NCBI GenBank assembly: GCA_945906305.1
Contig: CAMDQT010000010.1
Span: 1 to 64,000 of the forward strand
Length of the DNA stretch: 64,000 nt
Source of the DNA: Ferrithrix thermotolerans DSM 19514
GTDB taxonomy: Bacteria; Actinomycetota; Acidimicrobiia; Acidimicrobiales; CAIXPF01
Direction: 5' to 3'
A program made the position numbers and the translations under genes. Below the pieces are notes generated by a model that was not told the origin of the DNA, ran no database searches, and saw only the letters and a list, made by a program, of their open reading frames with translations. Position 1 is the first letter of the stretch, and every line of letters begins with the position of its first letter. Below, one piece after another: positions 2 to 9,458 of the stretch.

Positions 2-718
2 CAGAAGCTGGAACTGCTTGATGGCGCTGGCGTCGATGTCACCTATGTCGTGCGCTTCGACGAGGAGCGGTCCTTGGAGTCAGCGGAGCACTTCGTGGCT
101 GAGGTCATCGTGGGGTGTCTCGGCGCCTGCTGTGTGGTGGTAGGCGAGGATTTGCATTTCGGTCGGGGCAGGCTCGGCAATGTCGCCCTGTTACGCACCT
201 TGGGCGCGGCGTCCGGCTTTGACGTGATTGGGCTGGAGTTGCTGCAGGGCGGCGCCAAGGTCATCTCCTCAACCGCCATCCGTGAGGCGGTCACTGCCGG
301 CGATGTCGAGCTTGCCGCATCGCTGCTCGGACGGCCCCACGAACTACGAGGCGTGGTGATCGGCGGCGACCAACGGGGTCGGACGCTGGGCTTTCCGACG
401 GCCAATGTGGCGATTCCGGAGCAGATCTTGTTGCCTGCGGACGGGGTCTATGCCGGTTGGTATCTCCGGCCGGACCAGTCGCGTCACGGCGCCGCGGTGA
501 ATATCGGTCGGCGTCCAACCTTCTACCGGGACGGCACGGCGGCGCTCCTCGAGGCCTTCCTGCTCGATTTTTCTGGAGACCTGTACGGCGAGCAGGCCAG
601 CGTCGTGTTGACCCACCGTCTACGAGGAGAGGCCAAGTTCGACTCTGCGGGTGCGCTCGTGGCGCAGATGCGCTCCGACGTGGCAAGTGTGCGGCAGCTG
701 CTTGGCCTGCCCGGCTGA
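2..718 (+). CDS. ribF: Bifunctional riboflavin kinase / FAD synthetase RibF (5' end cut by window)
   Basis: The enzyme phosphorylates riboflavin to FMN and adenylates FMN to FAD in the cytoplasm. The reading frame is open to the first base, so the N-terminal part, including the HxGH nucleotide site, lies outside the window. What remains starts in the FAD synthetase half, with the family motif VVVGEDLHFGRGR and the ISSTAIR segment. The riboflavin kinase half follows, with the signature RGRTLGFPTANV and NIGRRPTF. A GTG at 50 is only an internal codon. The stop is at 716-718 and the dikinase homologue begins 28 bases later, so the two may be co-transcribed. Family identification is secure. Confidence 0.95.
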   Translation, partial: QKLELLDGAGVDVTYVVRFDEERSLESAEHFVAEVIVGCLGACCVVVGEDLHFGRGRLGNVALLRTLGAASGFDVIGLELLQGGAKVISSTAIREAVTAGDVELAASLLGRPHELRGVVIGGDQRGRTLGFPTANVAIPEQILLPADGVYAGWYLRPDQSRHGAAVNIGRRPTFYRDGTAALLEAFLLDFSGDLYGEQASVVLTHRLRGEAKFDSAGALVAQMRSDVASVRQLLGLPG

Positions 719-746
719 GCGAGGCCCAAGCGCCTGAAGGGCAGGG

Positions 747-3350
747 TTGTCGGAGATGCCGAATGGTCGCTACGTCTACGACTTCGATCACGGGCATGAA
801 CGACCGCCACGGGAGCTCGCCGACCTGCTCGGTGGGAAAGGCGCCAATCTGGCCGAGATGACCTCGGTTCTGCAGCTGCCGGTCCCGCCGGGTTTCACTA
901 TCAGCACAGAGGCGTGTCGCGCCTACCTGAGCGGCGGCTGGCCAGATGGCCTAAGCGCCGAACTCGAGGCTGCGCTGCACCGCCTGGAGCTGCGGACCGG
1001 TCGGTTACTCGCCGATCCCACCAACCCGCTGCTGCTCGCCGTGCGGTCGGGGGCGCGCTTCTCGATGCCGGGGATGATGGACACGGTGCTCAACCTGGGC
1101 TTGAACGATGAAACGGTGGCCGCACTCGCACGTCGCACCGAGCAGCGCTTCGCGCTTGACTCCTATCGTCGATTCATTGCTATGTACGCCCGGGTGGTGC
1201 TCGCGGTGCCAGCTGAGCTATTCGAGACTGCGCTCGCTGACGCGAGACGACGCTGCGGGGTACGCGCCGACTTTGAACTCGACACCGACGCGCTGGCAGA
1301 GGTCGTGGCCACGTCGCTCCAAGTGGTGCTGAATCACTCGGGGGCGGTGGTCCCCTCGGACCCGGCCCAGCAACTCCGCGGTGCCATTGAGGCGGTGTTC
1401 CGCTCCTGGGGATCGCCTCGAGCGAGGACCTACCGTCGACGCGAGGTAATCGCGGCAGACCTCGGAACTGCACTCAACGTGCAGGTCATGGTGTTCGGCA
1501 ATCGTGACGATCGCTCCGCCACTGGGGTGGGCTTCACCCGCAACCCCGTCACCGGGAGCGCGGAGCCCTATGGCGATTTCCTTATCAGAGCGCAGGGGGA
1601 GGACATCGTCGCGGGCATCAGCCGCCCCGAGCCGCTGGCGGCGATGGGTATGGCCTTTCCGGCCGCGTACGAGGAGTTGGTGGGCATATTCACCCGCCTC
1701 GAGCGTCACTATCGCGATGTGCTCGACACGGAGTTCACCATTGAGCAGGACAAGCTGTGGATGTTGCAGGCGCGGGTGGGCCAACGCAGCGGTGCCGCCG
1801 CGTTGCGAATTGCGGTGGCCATGGCCGAGGACCCCCACATCGCCCTTGATCGGCGGGAGGCGCTGCAGCGGATTCGGCCCGAGCATGTCGAACAGGTGCT
1901 GCGGCGGACCCTTTCGGGGACCGGGGCGGTAATCGCCACCGGACTGGCGGCTTCCCCGGGAGCGGCGGTTGGTCGCGTGTGCCTGAGCGCTGACGCCGCG
2001 GTGCAGGCCGCCGAACAGGGTCACGACGTCATCCTGGTGCGGGCGGAAACCTCGCCGGAGGATGTGCACGGCATGGCGGTGGCGCGTGGGTTGCTCACCA
2101 CCCGAGGGGGCCTGGTTTCCCACGCCGCCGTGGTGGCGCGTGGTTGGGGTATTCCCGCTGTTGTTGGGGCGCAAGGCCTAGCGATTGGGGAGGGCATGTT
2201 CACCGCCACCGTCGAAGGGGTCACGGTGGTGGTTCGAGAAGGCACCGTGATTGCCATCGACGGGAACTCCGGCGTGGTCATGCTTGATGGGTCAGCCACC
2301 GTTGAGCCAGACCCACCCGCTGAGCTTGCGTTGGTGTTGGGATGGGCCGACGAGGTCGGGCAGGGCCATCTTCGAGTGCTGGCGAATGCCGATACCGCGT
2401 CCGACGCTGCCATGGCGCGGGCTCTTGGCGCGCAAGGCGTTGGCCTGTGCCGCACGGAAGGCCACTTCCAAGCCGAGCGGCTACCGCTGCTGCGGCGGGC
2501 CATGTGGGCCACGACCGACGCTCAGCAGGCCGCCGCTCTCGCTGAGCTGGCGGCGCGGCAGCGGGCGGACTTCGAGGAGTTACTCCTGGCCTTGGACGGC
2601 CTGCCACTCACCGTACGGCTGCTCGATCCGCCCCGGCAGGGCTTTTGGCCCGCCACGGAGGACAGCAGCGATAGCACCAAGGCGGCCTTCGATCTGCTTC
2701 GTCCTCGCCTCTATCGAATGCAGGCCGCGGCGTTGCTAGATGCTGTGGCCGCCAGGCTCGCCCTCGGCGGTCACCCCAAGGCCGAGATCATCATCCCGAC
2801 GGCCCTCGACGGTGAAGAGTTGGTCCTGCTGCGCCAGTGGGTGCAGCGCGAGGTCTCCGCCGCCGCCTCCCGCCACGGCTGGGATCGGTGGCCCGCGGGC
2901 ATTCTGGCGTTAGGCCGGATGATCGAGACCCCGCCTGAGGTCCTTCGGGCGGCGGAGGTCGCGACGGGGGCAGACTTTTTCTGCTTCGACACGCAGCAGT
3001 TGACCGAGCTGAGCCTCGGGGTGCGCCGCGAGGACCTCGAAGCCCGATCCGGTTCGACGGCCCTCGAAACCAGGCGGTCGGTGCCTAACCCGTTCGAGAC
3101 CATCGATGTCGAGGTTCTCGGCCAGTTGGTTTCCATCGGGGTGACCCGGGGCCGAGGACGTAAAGCCGAGATCGGTATTGGGGTGTGGGGCGAACATGGC
3201 GGCGACCCTGCGTCCATTGCCTGGTTGGTGGCGGCTGGCGTGAACTACGTGAGCTGCCCGCTGTCCCGGGTCCCTGTGGCCCGCTTGGCGGCCGCTCACG
3301 CCGTGCTTGACCTGATGGGATTGGTCCCCAACGACCCGGCGGATCGATGA
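747..3350 (+). CDS. ppdK: Pyruvate phosphate dikinase homologue with eroded PEP/pyruvate site
   Basis: This 867-residue protein has the full PPDK layout: N-terminal ATP-grasp region (LLGGKGANLAEM, SMPGMMDTVLNLGL, GVGFTRNPVTG, AQGEDIVAG), central phosphohistidine domain with His459 in GGLVSHAAVVARG, and a C-terminal TIM barrel. The first two look functional. In the barrel, Arg624 (TVRLLDPP) and Glu727 (MIE) remain, but the catalytic Cys of CGEHGG is Trp814 (VWGEHGG), the GTNDLTQ motif reads DTQQLTE at 748-754, and the NPM-GHRG arginine segment is absent. Normal pyruvate-PEP interconversion is therefore doubtful. The TTG start at 747 has GAAGGG 6 bases upstream; ATG 756 is an alternative. It sits between ribF and dnaG. 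Confidence 0.88.
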   Translation: MSEMPNGRYVYDFDHGHERPPRELADLLGGKGANLAEMTSVLQLPVPPGFTISTEACRAYLSGGWPDGLSAELEAALHRLELRTGRLLADPTNPLLLAVRSGARFSMPGMMDTVLNLGLNDETVAALARRTEQRFALDSYRRFIAMYARVVLAVPAELFETALADARRRCGVRADFELDTDALAEVVATSLQVVLNHSGAVVPSDPAQQLRGAIEAVFRSWGSPRARTYRRREVIAADLGTALNVQVMVFGNRDDRSATGVGFTRNPVTGSAEPYGDFLIRAQGEDIVAGISRPEPLAAMGMAFPAAYEELVGIFTRLERHYRDVLDTEFTIEQDKLWMLQARVGQRSGAAALRIAVAMAEDPHIALDRREALQRIRPEHVEQVLRRTLSGTGAVIATGLAASPGAAVGRVCLSADAAVQAAEQGHDVILVRAETSPEDVHGMAVARGLLTTRGGLVSHAAVVARGWGIPAVVGAQGLAIGEGMFTATVEGVTVVVREGTVIAIDGNSGVVMLDGSATVEPDPPAELALVLGWADEVGQGHLRVLANADTASDAAMARALGAQGVGLCRTEGHFQAERLPLLRRAMWATTDAQQAAALAELAARQRADFEELLLALDGLPLTVRLLDPPRQGFWPATEDSSDSTKAAFDLLRPRLYRMQAAALLDAVAARLALGGHPKAEIIIPTALDGEELVLLRQWVQREVSAAASRHGWDRWPAGILALGRMIETPPEVLRAAEVATGADFFCFDTQQLTELSLGVRREDLEARSGSTALETRRSVPNPFETIDVEVLGQLVSIGVTRGRGRKAEIGIGVWGEHGGDPASIAWLVAAGVNYVSCPLSRVPVARLAAAHAVLDLMGLVPNDPADR

Positions 3351-3434: not shown

Positions 3435-3510
3435 CTGGGCGGATAATCCGCTCCGCTGGGCGGCTCGCTTGTGGTTGTCTTGGCCTGATGTCGGTGCGGC
3501 TGGAGCGTTC

Positions 3511-5391
3511 ATGATCAACGAGGAGGACGTGCTCTCGGTCCGCAACGCGACGAATATCGTCGCCGTCGTCAGTCAGTTCGTGCCGCTCAAGCGGGTTGGC
3601 CGTCGCTGGGTGGGGTTGTGCCCATTTCATCCGGAGAAGTCGCCAAGCTTTTCGCTGAACGAGGAACAGGGCCTTTTCTACTGTTTCGGTTGCCAAAAAA
3701 AGGGCGACAGCATCACCTTTCTGCGCGAGCTCGAGGGGCTCGACTTCGTGGGGGCGGTCGAGCGCCTCGCAGCCAAGGCCAACCTCTCGCTGCGCTACAC
3801 CGACGCCGATGGCGGGCAAACCCGCAAGCGACGTCAACACCTCTCCGACATCATCGATCAGGCGGTCGAGTGGTACCACCAGCGGCTGTTAGGCGGCGCC
3901 GACGCTGGTCCGGCCCGTGGCTATCTACGCTCGCGGGGCATCACCGGCCAAGAGGTGAGGCAGTTTCGCCTTGGTTGGGCACCAGCGGGATGGGACGAGT
4001 TGTCCTTGTCCATGCGGCTCGGCGATGACGATTGGCGCGACAGCGGTCTCGGACTGATCAATCGACGAGGCCGCCAGCAGGACTTCTTCCGCAACCGGGT
4101 GCTGTTTCCGATCTTCGATCCGCAAGGCGATCCGATCGGTTTTGGGGGCCGGAAGATGGAGGGTTCGGATGGTCCGAAGTATCTCAATCCGGGCGCCACC
4201 CCTATTTACGATAAGTCCAAAGTCCTGTACGGCTTGTCCGCCGCGAAGGCCGAAATAGTTCAGGTGCATGAAGCCATCGTCTGCGAGGGGTATACCGACG
4301 TGATCGGGTTCTTCCAAGCAGGGATGAGCCGCGCCGTCGCCACGTGTGGCACCGCGTTGACAGAAGATCATGTGAGGCTGCTCACCCGCTTCGCGAAGCG
4401 GCTGGTGCTGGCCTTTGACGCCGATTCGGCTGGCCAGGCTGCGGCGGAGCGGTTCCATCAGTGGGAGCAGACCTATGAGCTCGACGTAGTCGTGGCCAAC
4501 CTGCCCGATGGCGTCGATCCGGCCGAGCTCGCCCGGCAAGATCCGGCCGCGCTTCGCACTGCGGTGGAGCATGCCGTTCCGTTCCTCGGGTTCCGGTTGG
4601 CGCGGATCTTGGCCGCGGGTGATCTTCTCCGTCCCGAGGGAAGGGCCCGCACCGCTGAACGAGCCCTTGACGCCATCGCGCAACACCCGAACCCGTTGGT
4701 GCGAGACCAGTATCTGTTCGAAGTCTCCTCCCATTGCCGCATCGAGGTCGACCGCCTGCGGCAGCTCCTCGACCGCCGCTCTGAACGCCCGCCCGCGGGC
4801 ATCGAGGCCGAACGAGGGCGTTCGCGGGCAGACGGCGACCGTTCCTACGCCAACGATGCAACCTCTGCCGGCGCGTCGAACCGAGGCCGTGATCGGATCG
4901 CCCAGATCGACCTGCGTGATCGCCGCCACGGGGTGCTGCAACAAGTCGACCGCGATGCCCTGCGCGTTGCGGTTGACGCCCCGGACGAATCGTTGGCGTG
5001 GCTTGATCCGGTGCTCTTCTCCGAAGGACCCCACCGGCGCGCCTTCGCGGCGTTGGTGGCATGGCCGAGCTTGGTCGAGGCCTTGGCGGCGACCGAGGAC
5101 GACGACCCCGAAGCGGCGGAGTTGCTGCGGCAGGCTGCCGCCGAACAGACCGATTCCACCATGGAGGACGTATTCCTCCGTCTGAGCCAGGAGGCGGTTC
5201 GCCGCGTGATCGCTGATTTGAGGCAGACCGCACTCGGTGCGGAGAACCCGCTGGCTCTAAGCAGCCGGCTGGCCTTTGTCGTCGGGTTGCAGTCGACCTT
5301 GATGAGTGACGAAAGCACTAGCGACACAAAGCTTCAAGCCGGGACGGACTTGCTAGCGTGGTTGCTCGACCAGGATGAGGCAATGCGATGA
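3511..5391 (+). CDS. dnaG: DNA primase DnaG
   Basis: DNA primase makes the RNA primers for replication and works with the replicative helicase DnaB. From ATG 3511 the protein has 626 residues, a normal length. The CHC2 zinc finger is at Cys37, His40, Cys58 and Cys61. The TOPRIM catalytic core shows EGYTDV (Glu259) and the DxD pair Asp303/Asp305 in FDADSAG. A less conserved C-terminal helicase-binding region follows. I chose ATG 3511 over an upstream in-frame TTG (3469) because GGAG lies 5 bases upstream and DnaG proteins normally begin near an acidic motif such as NEEDV. The stop overlaps the rpoD start (ATGA), implying translational coupling. Confidence 0.97.
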
Positions 5392-6677
5392 ATCAACCAA
5401 CGCCCCTGGCCCCAGAGGCTGCGGGTCTCGGCGATGACCTCCAGGCGCTGTTGACCAAAGCCCGTGAAGTCGGCCGGATCGCGTACGGCGACGTGGAGCA
5501 GGTCGTGCCGGCGGCACGGCGAACGAGCGAGTTGTACGCCGCAATCCGAGCGTTGGCCCTGGCCGAGGGGATCGAGGTGCTCGGCGAGCCTGCCGTGACA
5601 TTGCGGATCGTGCCCCTTGTCGGCACCGACACTCCGAGCGTGGATGCCGTTCGTGGCCGTCGGTTGAGCAAAGTAGACGATGATGCCCCTCGAACTCGTC
5701 GGCCCTCGGCTCGGGTCGATCCGAGCCTGCGAGCTGGATCGGCGGGTACCTCGGACACGGTCCGTATGTATCTCAAGGAAATCGGCCAAGTTGCGCTGCT
5801 CGCCGCCGAAGGTGAGGTGGCCTTGGCCATACGGATACAGGCCGGCATGTTGGCGGCAGAGCAACTTGCTGACCTGACCGCGGCCGGTGGGCTCGACACG
5901 ATAGAGCCCCGCGAACGTCGCCGGTTGCGTCGGGTGGCCAATGACGGCGACCTGGCCAAGCAGGAACTCACCCAGGCCAACTTGCGTCTGGTGGTTTCCA
6001 TCGCCAAGCGCTACGTGGGTCGGGGCATGCTTCTGCTCGACCTCATCCAGGAGGGCAACCTCGGTCTTATGCGGGCGGTCGAGAAGTTCGACCACACCAA
6101 GGGCTTCAAGTTCTCCACCTATGCCACCTGGTGGATCCGCCAGGCCATCACGAGGGCGATCGCCGATCAGGCCCGCACTATCCGGATCCCGGTGCATATG
6201 GTCGAGTCGATGAACAAGGTTCATCGGGTCCAACGCCAGATGGTGCAGGAACTCGAACGCGATGCCACGGTCGAGGAACTCGCCGCCCGGGTGGATATGA
6301 CGGCGGAGCGGGTCCGCGACATCCTGCGCTACAGCCAGGATCCTCTCTCGCTCGATTCGCCGGTGGGCGAGGAGGACGACTCGAACCTTGCCGACTTCAT
6401 CGCCGATGGAGGCGCGGAGGCCCCCGCCGATGCGGCGGCCAAGATGATGCTGGGCGAAGCCGTGATCGAAGCGCTCGCTGGCCTTTCGGACCGGGAGAAG
6501 CAGGTGGTACGGCTCCGCTTCGGCCTGGAGGACGGCCAAGCCCGCACGCTGGAGGAGGTCGGCAAGGAGTTTGGCGTCACGCGGGAACGAATTCGCCAGA
6601 TCGAGTCGAAAACGCTGGCCAAGTTGCGCCACCCGCTTCGCAGCCACAAGCTTCGTGATTATCTCGACGGAGCGTAA
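5388..6677 (+). CDS. rpoD: Primary RNA polymerase sigma factor RpoD/SigA (sigma-70)
   Basis: This is the principal vegetative sigma factor, 429 residues. A variable N-terminal stretch holds region 1.1-like sequence. Region 1.2 ([11 protein letters not shown]) follows at about residue 123, then region 2 with [34 protein letters not shown] and the -10 reader helix [14 protein letters not shown]. Region 3 contains RIPVHMVE. Region 4 has the helix-turn-helix [20 protein letters not shown]. The C-terminus ends LRDYLDGA, typical for group 1 sigma factors. The ATG overlaps the dnaG stop, so this is the dnaG-rpoD part of the classical macromolecular synthesis operon, without rpsU. A hairpin terminator follows 20 bases after the stop. 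Confidence 0.97.
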
Positions 6678-6696: not shown

Positions 6697-6735
6697 CCGG
6701 AGCCGGATCGAAAGAGCCGGTTCCGGCGGCTTTTT
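6697..6735 (+). terminator. Rho-independent terminator of the dnaG-rpoD operon
   Basis: A 10-bp stem is formed by CCGGAGCCGG (6697-6706) and CCGGTTCCGG (6717-6726), with a single G-T wobble and a 10-base loop. CGGC and five T residues (6731-6735) follow. Position and structure fit an intrinsic terminator closing the rpoD transcript. Confidence 0.85.
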
Positions 6736-6835
6736 GGCTCAAATCGCCACCAGAGCCAGTCTCACCCAACTAGAACAGTGCACTAGGTGCGAGCTGGTCG
6801 CATCTGGGTTCGATGTAAACGGCTGTGTGGACACG

Positions 6836-7852
6836 ATGGGTAAGCACGCTCGATCGCGTGGGCGACGAGCCGGGTGTTGGACGGTGCTGTGGGCAGTGGT
6901 CGCGGGCAGTCTCGGCGCCTGTGCCAGCGCGCAGGGCGCGGACGGCCGGCCGTTGGTGGTCACCACCGTCGCCCCCATCACGTCGATCGTGGCCAGCGTG
7001 GTCGGTGATCAGGCCAGGGTGGTGGGCATCGTGCCTGAGGGCATCAATTCCCACACCTTCGAGCCGAAGCCGTCGGTGGCCAAAGACCTCGCCCAGGCCG
7101 ACATCATCTTCATGAACGGCCTTCAACTCGAAGAGCCAACCCGCAAGCTGGCGGAGGCCAACCGAAAGAAGCGGACCGAACTGGTCCAACTCGGTGACCG
7201 CACCATCACTCCGGAGCAGTATCTGTTCGACTTTTCCTTCCCCAAGGAGGAGGGCAAGCCCAATCCGCATCTGTGGACCAACCCATTGATGGCCAAACGC
7301 TACGCCGAGATTGTGGCCGAAGCGATGAGCAAGATCGATCCTCGTTCGGCCGCCGTGTACACCAGCAACCTCGCCGCATTCTCGGCCCGGATCGACCGCC
7401 TCGATGCCGCCATGCGCACGGCCTTCGCCACCATTCCCGACGGCCAGCGCCAATTGCTCACGTATCACGACGCGTACGGCTACTTCGCCCTGGAGTACGG
7501 CTGGACCATCCTGGGGGCCATCCAGATGTCCGACTTCGAGGACCCCACCCCAAAGGACGTCGTCCGCTTGGTCCAACAACTCAAAGCGAGCGGGGTGAAG
7601 GCCATCTTCGGCTCAGAGGTCTTCCCCAGCCCGGTGCTCGATCAGCTCAGCAAAGAGGCCGGGGTGGCCTACGTGGATGATCTCCGTGACGATGATCTGC
7701 CCGGCGTTCCCGGCGGGGCAGAACATTCCTACCTGGCCCTGATGCGCTTCGACTTCATCACGATGACCGAGGCCCTGGGAGGCGACCCGCTGGCCTTGCA
7801 GCAGGTTGATGTGTCCCCAGTGGTCCCTGACCGGGCGATATACCCGCAATGA
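6836..7852 (+). CDS. Zinc-type metal ABC transporter substrate-binding lipoprotein (ZnuA/TroA family)
   Basis: This extracytoplasmic protein captures a divalent metal and delivers it to the permease encoded downstream. From ATG 6836 the 338-residue product begins with an Arg-rich n-region, a hydrophobic stretch and a lipobox LGAC with Cys29 as the likely lipidated residue. Cluster A-I metal ligands are visible: His73 (NSHTFEP), His145 (NPHLW), His211 (YHDAYGYF) and Asp281 (YVDDL). A His in the third position is typical of zinc rather than manganese binders. An upstream extension to 6734 would run into the rpoD terminator and is rejected. The stop overlaps the ATPase start (ATGA). Metal choice is inferred, not proven. 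Confidence 0.9.
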   Translation: MGKHARSRGRRAGCWTVLWAVVAGSLGACASAQGADGRPLVVTTVAPITSIVASVVGDQARVVGIVPEGINSHTFEPKPSVAKDLAQADIIFMNGLQLEEPTRKLAEANRKKRTELVQLGDRTITPEQYLFDFSFPKEEGKPNPHLWTNPLMAKRYAEIVAEAMSKIDPRSAAVYTSNLAAFSARIDRLDAAMRTAFATIPDGQRQLLTYHDAYGYFALEYGWTILGAIQMSDFEDPTPKDVVRLVQQLKASGVKAIFGSEVFPSPVLDQLSKEAGVAYVDDLRDDDLPGVPGGAEHSYLALMRFDFITMTEALGGDPLALQQVDVSPVVPDRAIYPQ

Positions 7853-8613
7853 GCGACACCCTGGTTCGTTTCGAGGACGTCTCGTTTGGCTACGGCCATC
7901 ACCTCGTGGTCGAAAAAATAAACCTGACCGTCGAACCCGGCTGTTTCATGGGAATCGTCGGACCATCCGGGTCGGGCAAGACCACGCTCCTTCGGTTGTT
8001 GGTAGGTGCCGTACGGCCCGTCAGGGGAACGGTGCAGCTACGTTCAGGCCTCCGAGTGGCCTACGTGCCGCAGGTGGAGACCGTGAACTGGGACTTTCCG
8101 GTCACGGTGGGCGAGGTGCTGGCCATGGCCTTGCTGGGCAAGCGTCGGCTGCCCTGGCGCTCGGCCGCGGAAGGGCGCGCGATCGAGGCCATGTTGGATC
8201 GCTTGGGGCTGGCGGGCCTGGCGTCGCGTCACATCAGAGCACTGTCGGGCGGTCAACAGCAGCGGGTGTTCCTGGCTAGGGCCCTCATCGGCTCGCCGGA
8301 TCTGTTGCTGATGGACGAGCCCACCTCCGGCGTTGACGTACGGACCCGCCACGAGATTCTGCACCTCCTCGACGAGCTCAACGCCGAGGGCACGGCCATG
8401 CTGCTTACCACCCACGACCTCAACGGCATCGCCGCGCATCTTCCGCAGTTGGTCTGCATGAACCGGCGCATCATTGGCCAGGGCCCGCCGGCAAGCGTGC
8501 TCACCCCTGCGGTACTCGAAGCCACCTACGGGGCGAGAATGGACGTCTTGTCCCATGCTGGCATGCCCGTGGTGGTGGACATCGACCTGCAACGTCCGCG
8601 TCGGGTGAGCTGA
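7849..8613 (+). CDS. Metal ABC transporter ATP-binding protein
   Basis: This is the ATPase that powers the zinc-type importer, 254 residues. It shows Walker A GPSGSGKTT (residues 38-46), a Q-loop at YVPQ, signature LSGGQ (132-136), Walker B LLLMDEP (152-158) and the switch His in TTHDLNG. Similarity is to the ZnuC/MntB/AztA class. It overlaps the binding-protein gene by 4 bases and the permease gene by 1 base, so all three are one translationally coupled unit. Confidence 0.95.
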   Translation: MSDTLVRFEDVSFGYGHHLVVEKINLTVEPGCFMGIVGPSGSGKTTLLRLLVGAVRPVRGTVQLRSGLRVAYVPQVETVNWDFPVTVGEVLAMALLGKRRLPWRSAAEGRAIEAMLDRLGLAGLASRHIRALSGGQQQRVFLARALIGSPDLLLMDEPTSGVDVRTRHEILHLLDELNAEGTAMLLTTHDLNGIAAHLPQLVCMNRRIIGQGPPASVLTPAVLEATYGARMDVLSHAGMPVVVDIDLQRPRRVS

Positions 8614-9458
8614 TGAACACGTTGTGGGAACCATTTAGCTTCACCTTCTTCCGCAACGGTTTGGTAGTCGCCACGTTGGCTGGGGCTCTGTGCGGACTTA
8701 TTGGCACCTATGTCGTGCTGCGCTCCATGAGCTTCATTGGCCACGGCCTCTCCCATGCGATCTTTGGTGGCTTCGTGGCCTCCTCGCTGGTAGGGGTGAA
8801 CTACCTGCTCGGAGCGGGCCTGTGGGGGTTGGCGTCCGCGCTCGCCATTGGTGCGGTGACCCGGCGCCGGCCGATCGGTTCCGACGCCGCCATCGGGGTG
8901 ATAACTACCGCGAGCTTTGCGCTGGGCCTCGTGCTCGGAGATGTGTTCCGCGGCCCCCGGGAGAGCTTTGACGCCGCCCTCTTCGGCAGCATTCTCGGTG
9001 TGTCGGGCCGCGACGTGGCATCAGTGGCCGGGGTGAGCGCGGCGGCGATCGTCGTGGTGTTCCTCGCCTACCGGCGGCTGCTCTTCGCCACGTTTGATCC
9101 CGACGTCGCGGCGGTCAGCGGCGTGCACACCGCCCGGGTCGATGCGCTGCTGATGGTGGTTCTCGCCACCTCGATCCTGGTTACGCTCAAGGTGGTCGGG
9201 GTGACGTTGCTGGCCGCCACCCTGGTCATTCCCGCCACGGTGGCACGCATGCTCACCAACTCCTTTTCCCAGATGTTGTGGCTGGCGACGGGGATTGGGG
9301 CGTTTTGCGGGTTCGTAGGCATGATCCTCAGTTACCACCTGAACTGGAAGTCCGGCCCTACCATTGTGCTGGTCGGTACGGTTCTGTTCTGTTTCGCCTT
9401 GACCGTCGGTGGCCGTCGAGGCCGGTCGCAGGTGGCCCATCTCGGACATGTCGGGTAG
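8613..9458 (+). CDS. Metal ABC transporter permease (ABC-3 family)
   Basis: This 281-residue integral membrane protein has about eight hydrophobic segments. It carries the ABC-3 family pattern FFRNGLVVATLAGALCGLIGTYVVLRSMSFIGHGLSHAIFGG in its first two helices (quoted here in outline: RNGL, then GTYVVLR, then LSHA). A later DALLMVVLATSILVT stretch precedes the segment that couples to the ATPase. The start overlaps the ATPase stop (TGATG). It forms the channel of the zinc-type importer, presumably as a homodimer. The Fur-family gene starts 6 bases after its stop. Confidence 0.94.
   Translation: MNTLWEPFSFTFFRNGLVVATLAGALCGLIGTYVVLRSMSFIGHGLSHAIFGGFVASSLVGVNYLLGAGLWGLASALAIGAVTRRRPIGSDAAIGVITTASFALGLVLGDVFRGPRESFDAALFGSILGVSGRDVASVAGVSAAAIVVVFLAYRRLLFATFDPDVAAVSGVHTARVDALLMVVLATSILVTLKVVGVTLLAATLVIPATVARMLTNSFSQMLWLATGIGAFCGFVGMILSYHLNWKSGPTIVLVGTVLFCFALTVGGRRGRSQVAHLGHVG

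Follow-up and report, generated by a model that had tools for sequence, protein, structure and literature searches.

Pyruvate phosphate dikinase (PPDK), an enzyme of central metabolism, works as a two-site machine, in which the two sites are joined by a swivelling phospho-histidine domain. In the enzyme of Clostridium symbiosum, the residues at the PEP/pyruvate-site positions compared below bind or protonate PEP or pyruvate; Asp769 and Glu745 are metal ligands, Cys831 is the acid/base and Thr453 is the regulatory threonine. The PPDK dimer interface is built by the PEP domains (PMC5556012). In Mycobacterium tuberculosis, the barrel-less PPDK VadK (Rv1127c) uses Mg-ATP to phosphorylate its own His422, and it influences the methylcitrate cycle by contacting other proteins; several genera of actinobacteria have VadK forms, possibly of more than one origin, and some mycobacteria contain a full-length PPDK lacking the kinase motifs (PMC13400623).

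The window, by which we mean the whole stretch of 64,000 nucleotides analysed here, contained a ppdK-like gene (Table 1) whose frame, as first reported, runs through 867 codons with no stop. Translation probably starts from an in-frame ATG at position 756, giving 864 aa; this ATG lines up with the congener start MPNRSYVYDFDH, and a purine-rich stretch precedes it. The product scored 884.6 bits against the NCBIfam PPDK equivalog TIGR01828 (cut-off 843.45), its best solved-structure relatives were PPDKs without exception, and its nearest named relatives came from Acidimicrobiia-type Actinomycetota MAGs. The gene order ribF-ppdK-dnaG-rpoD was common to the window and two congeners (G001 and G003), and its downstream side was also kept in less closely related members of the order; a further genome, G002, is uninformative on the locus, since its contig stops just upstream of dnaG. 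Window and congener proteins shared 69 per cent identity over 896 aligned positions. By its syntenic locus and this identity of about 70 per cent, the window gene is a PPDK by descent, that is, an orthologue. Between ribF and ppdK the congeners carry a thymidine kinase gene (tdk; L114 8350-8940 (-)), which is absent from the window (718-747), and a PF00265 profile search for thymidine kinase returned zero matches in the window's genome. On the 3′ side of rpoD, positions 6734-9458 hold genes named from their translations as a znuA-like binding protein, an ABC ATPase and an ABC-3 type membrane protein, apparently a zinc/manganese importer, and the znuA-like gene occupies the same place in the congeners.

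Table 1. Positions of the ppdK-like gene, its parts and its neighbours in the window, followed by reduced homologues in other genomes (positions in L124, L125 and L126)
Feature	Position	Strand	Remarks
ribF (3′ part), upstream neighbour	50..718	+	domain search, synteny
ppdK-like gene	747..3350	+	867 codons from TTG; PPDK_N, PEP-utilizers and PEP-utilizers_C Pfam domains
ATP-grasp (nucleotide-binding) domain, residues 9-345	771..1781	+	K31, R100, E329, Q341, R343 kept
Swivelling phospho-histidine domain, residues 391-510	1917..2276	+	slowest-changing part, 1/57 invariant columns changed
His459 codon (= catalytic His455)	2121..2123	+	alignment to C. symbiosum PPDK
C-terminal PEP/pyruvate barrel, residues 511-867	2277..3347	+	eight strands predicted, active site eroded
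Arg569 (= Arg561), kept	2451..2453	+	alignment
Arg624 (= Arg617), kept	2616..2618	+	alignment
Deletion scar	2630..2690	+	31 extra residues in congeners, including NPMLGTRGV with Arg665
Glu727 (= Glu745), kept	2925..2927	+	alignment
DTQQLTE in place of GTNDLTQ	2988..3008	+	G766D, N768Q, D769Q, Q772E
Trp814 in place of catalytic Cys831	3186..3188	+	alignment, pattern search
dnaG, downstream neighbour, rate control	3469..5391	+	domain search, synteny
rpoD-type sigma factor gene, neighbour, rate control	5388..6677	+	domain search, synteny
About-520-aa His + barrel homologue, L124	5991-7532	-	
About-520-aa His + barrel homologue, L125	5149-6657	+	
About-520-aa His + barrel homologue, L126	5135-6559	-	

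When the window protein was aligned to C. symbiosum PPDK, whose residue numbers are used here, the equivalents of the ATP-site residues K22, R92, E323, Q335 and R337 and of the phospho-histidine H455 were all found to be kept. Only three of the seven PEP/pyruvate-site residues (R561, R617 and E745) were kept; the other four were lost (R665 by deletion, N768 and D769 each to Gln, C831 to Trp), and G766 was replaced by Asp. The NPM-GHRG block was missing through the deletion of 31 congener columns, 13 of which are invariant in relatives. Across 107 homologues from many phyla the catalytic columns were invariant (14/14), except that one sequence was gapped at two ATP-site columns. The position of Thr453 was occupied by Val in the window protein and in 27/27 sampled relatives, so that this Val is not special to the window protein. 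In the functional sense of the name PPDK, the ATP-site residues and the catalytic histidine are therefore present and the PEP/pyruvate-site set is incomplete. The original prediction had described intact ATP and phosphohistidine machinery, the loss of most PEP/pyruvate-site residues and an absent NPM-GHRG block, and had placed His459, Arg624, Glu727, DTQQLTE (748-754) and Trp814 where we find them; all of this agrees with the alignment. It went astray in listing Arg617 with the altered residues: a loss of Arg617 is ruled out by its alignment with the kept Arg624, and the arginine lost with the block is Arg665.

The canonical motifs HEQNPMLGTRGVRLG, GTNDLTQ and VCGEHGG were present at the same locus in both G001 and G003, indicating that the loss is specific to the window lineage. 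The search for homologues sharing Trp814 that accompanied the original prediction was run as a pattern search over 397 genomes of the order, where the Cys form occurred in 244 and the window gene was the sole PPDK with Trp, no second species among the PPDKs sharing it. Another Trp-pattern match (G185) sits outside any PPDK and was rejected as a Trp814 homologue. The window genome (3.10 Mb, 97.9% complete) was likewise searched by profile for the second, canonical ppdK envisaged earlier. It contained a single PPDK_N gene and a single PEP-utilizers domain, and PF02896 matched the window gene and one sub-cut-off 159-bp stretch that is also found in congeners; these searches found no second PPDK or credible PEP barrel elsewhere in this genome, and that candidate was rejected. 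Pyruvate kinase and GTP-PEPCK are both encoded, so the pyruvate-PEP step of PPDK would be dispensable.

AlphaFold2 was run on an alignment headed by the window protein and otherwise made up of canonical homologues, so that the resulting model (pLDDT 86.1, pTM 0.83; TM 0.86 against 1KBL) shows the fold to be compatible rather than proven. Eight barrel strands were predicted (543-547, 565-569, 620-624, 678-683, 720-726, 744-748, 810-814 and 834-837); confidence was low around the deletion scar (about 630-650) and across 767-778. The (beta-alpha)8 barrel of the window protein may still be folded, as a catalytically inert structure.

The distribution of changes along the gene was uneven. In a relative-rate test of amino-acid changes since the window/G001 split, polarised by an outgroup, window-only versus G001-only changes were 23 versus 17 in the ATP-grasp domain, 2 versus 2 in the His domain, 21 versus 3 in the first part of the barrel (barrel_a, p=3e-4) and 45 versus 4 in its second part (barrel_b, p=8e-10), and 20 versus 15 for dnaG and 4 versus 6 for rpoD. 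With the excess confined to the barrel and absent from the ATP-grasp and His domains, dnaG and rpoD, the whole gene is not simply decaying. Invariant columns had changed at 46/156 barrel positions, with 13 further ones deleted, and at 14/221 positions of the ATP-grasp and His domains together (Fisher p=3e-9), compared with 7/156 and 11/221 (p=1) in G001 as control. For the ATP-grasp domain alone the counts were 13/164 in the window protein (including N281R, T294P and T342A) and 11/164 in G001; the linker carried K346Q. A three-taxon codon model with no outgroup gave a barrel_b omega of 0.224 on the window branch and 0.045 in congeners (p=3e-7), left the ATP-grasp (0.090 versus 0.105) and His omegas unchanged, and rejected omega=1 for the barrel as a branch average. 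The four-taxon model raised the ATP-grasp omega (0.134 versus 0.036), a less reliable fit with a saturated outgroup; because the four-taxon and single-partition fits had saturated outgroup branches and unstable omegas (12.3 for the His domain), we rely on the three-taxon fit and the amino-acid test. Since the mutation rate is equal within one gene and its halves changed unequally, the ATP/His half must have stayed under selection once the barrel had been released from it. A search for repeats in the barrel gave nothing notable.

The best explanation, to which we assign a probability of about 0.6, is that the window protein is a PPDK orthologue in which the PEP/pyruvate half-reaction would be lost and the ATP half-reaction kept; against it count that a single genome carries the dead-PEP-half form, that the ATP-grasp domain has changed too (though about as much as in G001), and that the small genome and lost adjacent tdk fit general reduction. 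Judging from its residues and by analogy with VadK, the protein is now probably a histidine kinase. We infer that PPDK activity is lost and autophosphorylation kept, that the phosphate has a different acceptor or the protein a regulatory role, and that the barrel serves as a dimer scaffold. The ATP-grasp domain would bind Mg-ATP and phosphorylate His459 on the swivelling domain, so that ATP, with or without Pi, would yield phospho-His together with AMP and PPi or Pi. With Asn768, Arg665, the acid/base Cys831 and the metal ligand Asp769 all missing, transfer of the phosphate from His459 to pyruvate would fail. Another acceptor could receive the phosphate instead, or phospho-His itself might act via protein contacts, as proposed for VadK; the original prediction likewise supposed another target or a regulatory role, for which VadK offers a characterised parallel. 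The inert barrel could be retained, perhaps as a dimer scaffold, because PPDK dimers form through their PEP domains.

A dying gene is an unlikely alternative, yet one with evidence of its own: PPDK would be dispensable in a shrinking genome with pyruvate kinase and PEPCK, and the gene would be an early pseudogene whose frame is open by chance. Several of 59 relatives are without a clear PPDK match, which points to dispensability in the order; at 3.1 Mb the genome is smaller than those of G001/G003 (4.1-4.4 Mb), and it has lost tdk; and simulated neutral drift left the barrel stop-free in 23-51% of runs before indels, turning unlikely only under an assumed indel rate. The open frame alone therefore proves little, and the earlier argument that the gene is not decayed because its frame is open is weak as it was put, although its conclusion of no obvious decay stands on the domain-specific rates. 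A useless gene would drift evenly, but here the ATP-grasp/His half evolved like that of the congeners and the barrel did not; the reading frame is unbroken, also across the deletion, and conserved columns of barrel_b changed less than variable ones (0.30 versus 0.53).

It is rather improbable that the barrel site was remodelled to bind another small molecule, with Arg561, Arg617 and Glu745 kept and Asp748, Gln750, Gln751 and Trp814 new. Such acceptor chemistry could agree with the predicted fold, the three kept active-site residues and a mean barrel omega well under 1, and dikinase-fold enzymes with other acceptors are known, for example rifampin phosphotransferase (PMC4844700). Nevertheless, the metal ligand and the entire R665 loop are lost, the changes are spread across the barrel instead of being limited to the pocket, and the pattern search of the 397 genomes turned up no related sequence that shares these new residues. 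A working PPDK with unusual residues would fit the score above the equivalog cut-off and the predicted overall fold, but would have to do without Asp769, Asn768, Arg665 and Cys831 together, none of which varies in the 107 homologues, and we consider it highly improbable. The sequencing error that the original prediction raised as an alternative, or an assembly artefact, is the least probable of all: the gene is close to one end of its contig (contig position 747), but its divergence is even and consists of dozens of in-frame replacements, its codon-position GC is normal and like that of neighbouring genes, the flanking genes on both sides are syntenic with the congeners, and an artefact could not yield about 43 per cent divergence limited to one domain.

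Other members of the order have undergone the opposite loss. In the sister genus (G004), the gene at the same locus (L116 5385-7619 (-), 744 aa) has lost K22, R92, E323 and Q335 with its PEP site whole, and three genomes of other families (G017, G031 and G058) encode His + barrel homologues of about 520 aa, two of the three directly upstream of dnaG, with no PPDK_N anywhere in these genomes. Like the window protein, these homologues are all PPDK-derived, keep the phospho-His and have lost one partner site; having lost the ATP site or the whole ATP-grasp domain while the PEP site is intact, they are its mirror image. The short PPDK of G005 (L117 6552-8020 (+)), a genome of the same family as the window's, is limited to the ATP-grasp and His domains, a VadK-like layout, and lies away from the ribF-dnaG locus. 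Together with the window form, these genes indicate that the two half-reactions were lost separately in the order. All of the reduced forms retain the phospho-histidine domain, which suggests that this domain is the part selection keeps. At somewhat less than even odds, we tentatively propose a full-length, barrel-retaining, PPDK-derived histidine kinase with an origin separate from that of VadK, an intermediate between enzyme and kinase, with a barrel that is now structural or regulatory, and a sister genus holding the opposite half of the same ancestral gene.

VadK illustrates that loss of the PEP domain can give a regulatory kinase. Given that the window gene remains at the ancestral locus, keeps a dead barrel and has canonical congeners, the order of steps, PEP site first and domain later, becomes directly testable. 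The PPDK equivalog model still labels such proteins PPDK, so that PEP-pyruvate reactions would be wrongly entered in metabolic models.

The window protein resembles canonical PPDK (C. symbiosum 1KBL; G001/G003) in three-domain order, length, ATP-site residues, catalytic His and locus, and differs from it in lacking R665, G766, N768, D769 and C831 and 31 barrel residues. It has the phospho-His domain and the PEP barrel fold in common with PTS Enzyme I, which takes phosphate from PEP and has no ATP-grasp domain, so that the window protein would have the opposite set of working sites. Like VadK and the short actinobacterial PPDKs (NCBIfam PRK05878 type), it is PPDK-derived and actinobacterial, keeps the ATP-grasp and phospho-His domains and has no usable PEP/pyruvate site, and, the sub-cut-off PF02896 match aside, no other PEP-domain protein in the genome could supply one. 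Unlike VadK, which has no barrel and lies beside methylcitrate genes, it keeps an eroded barrel, predicted to be folded, at the ancestral ribF-dnaG location, and is therefore VadK-like in its working at most, and not a VadK member by architecture; autophosphorylation is experimental for VadK (PMC13400623) and is predicted for the window protein. As far as its residues indicate, the window gene adds a third state to VadK and the full-length PPDK lacking kinase motifs, being full length with the kinase half kept and the PEP half dead.
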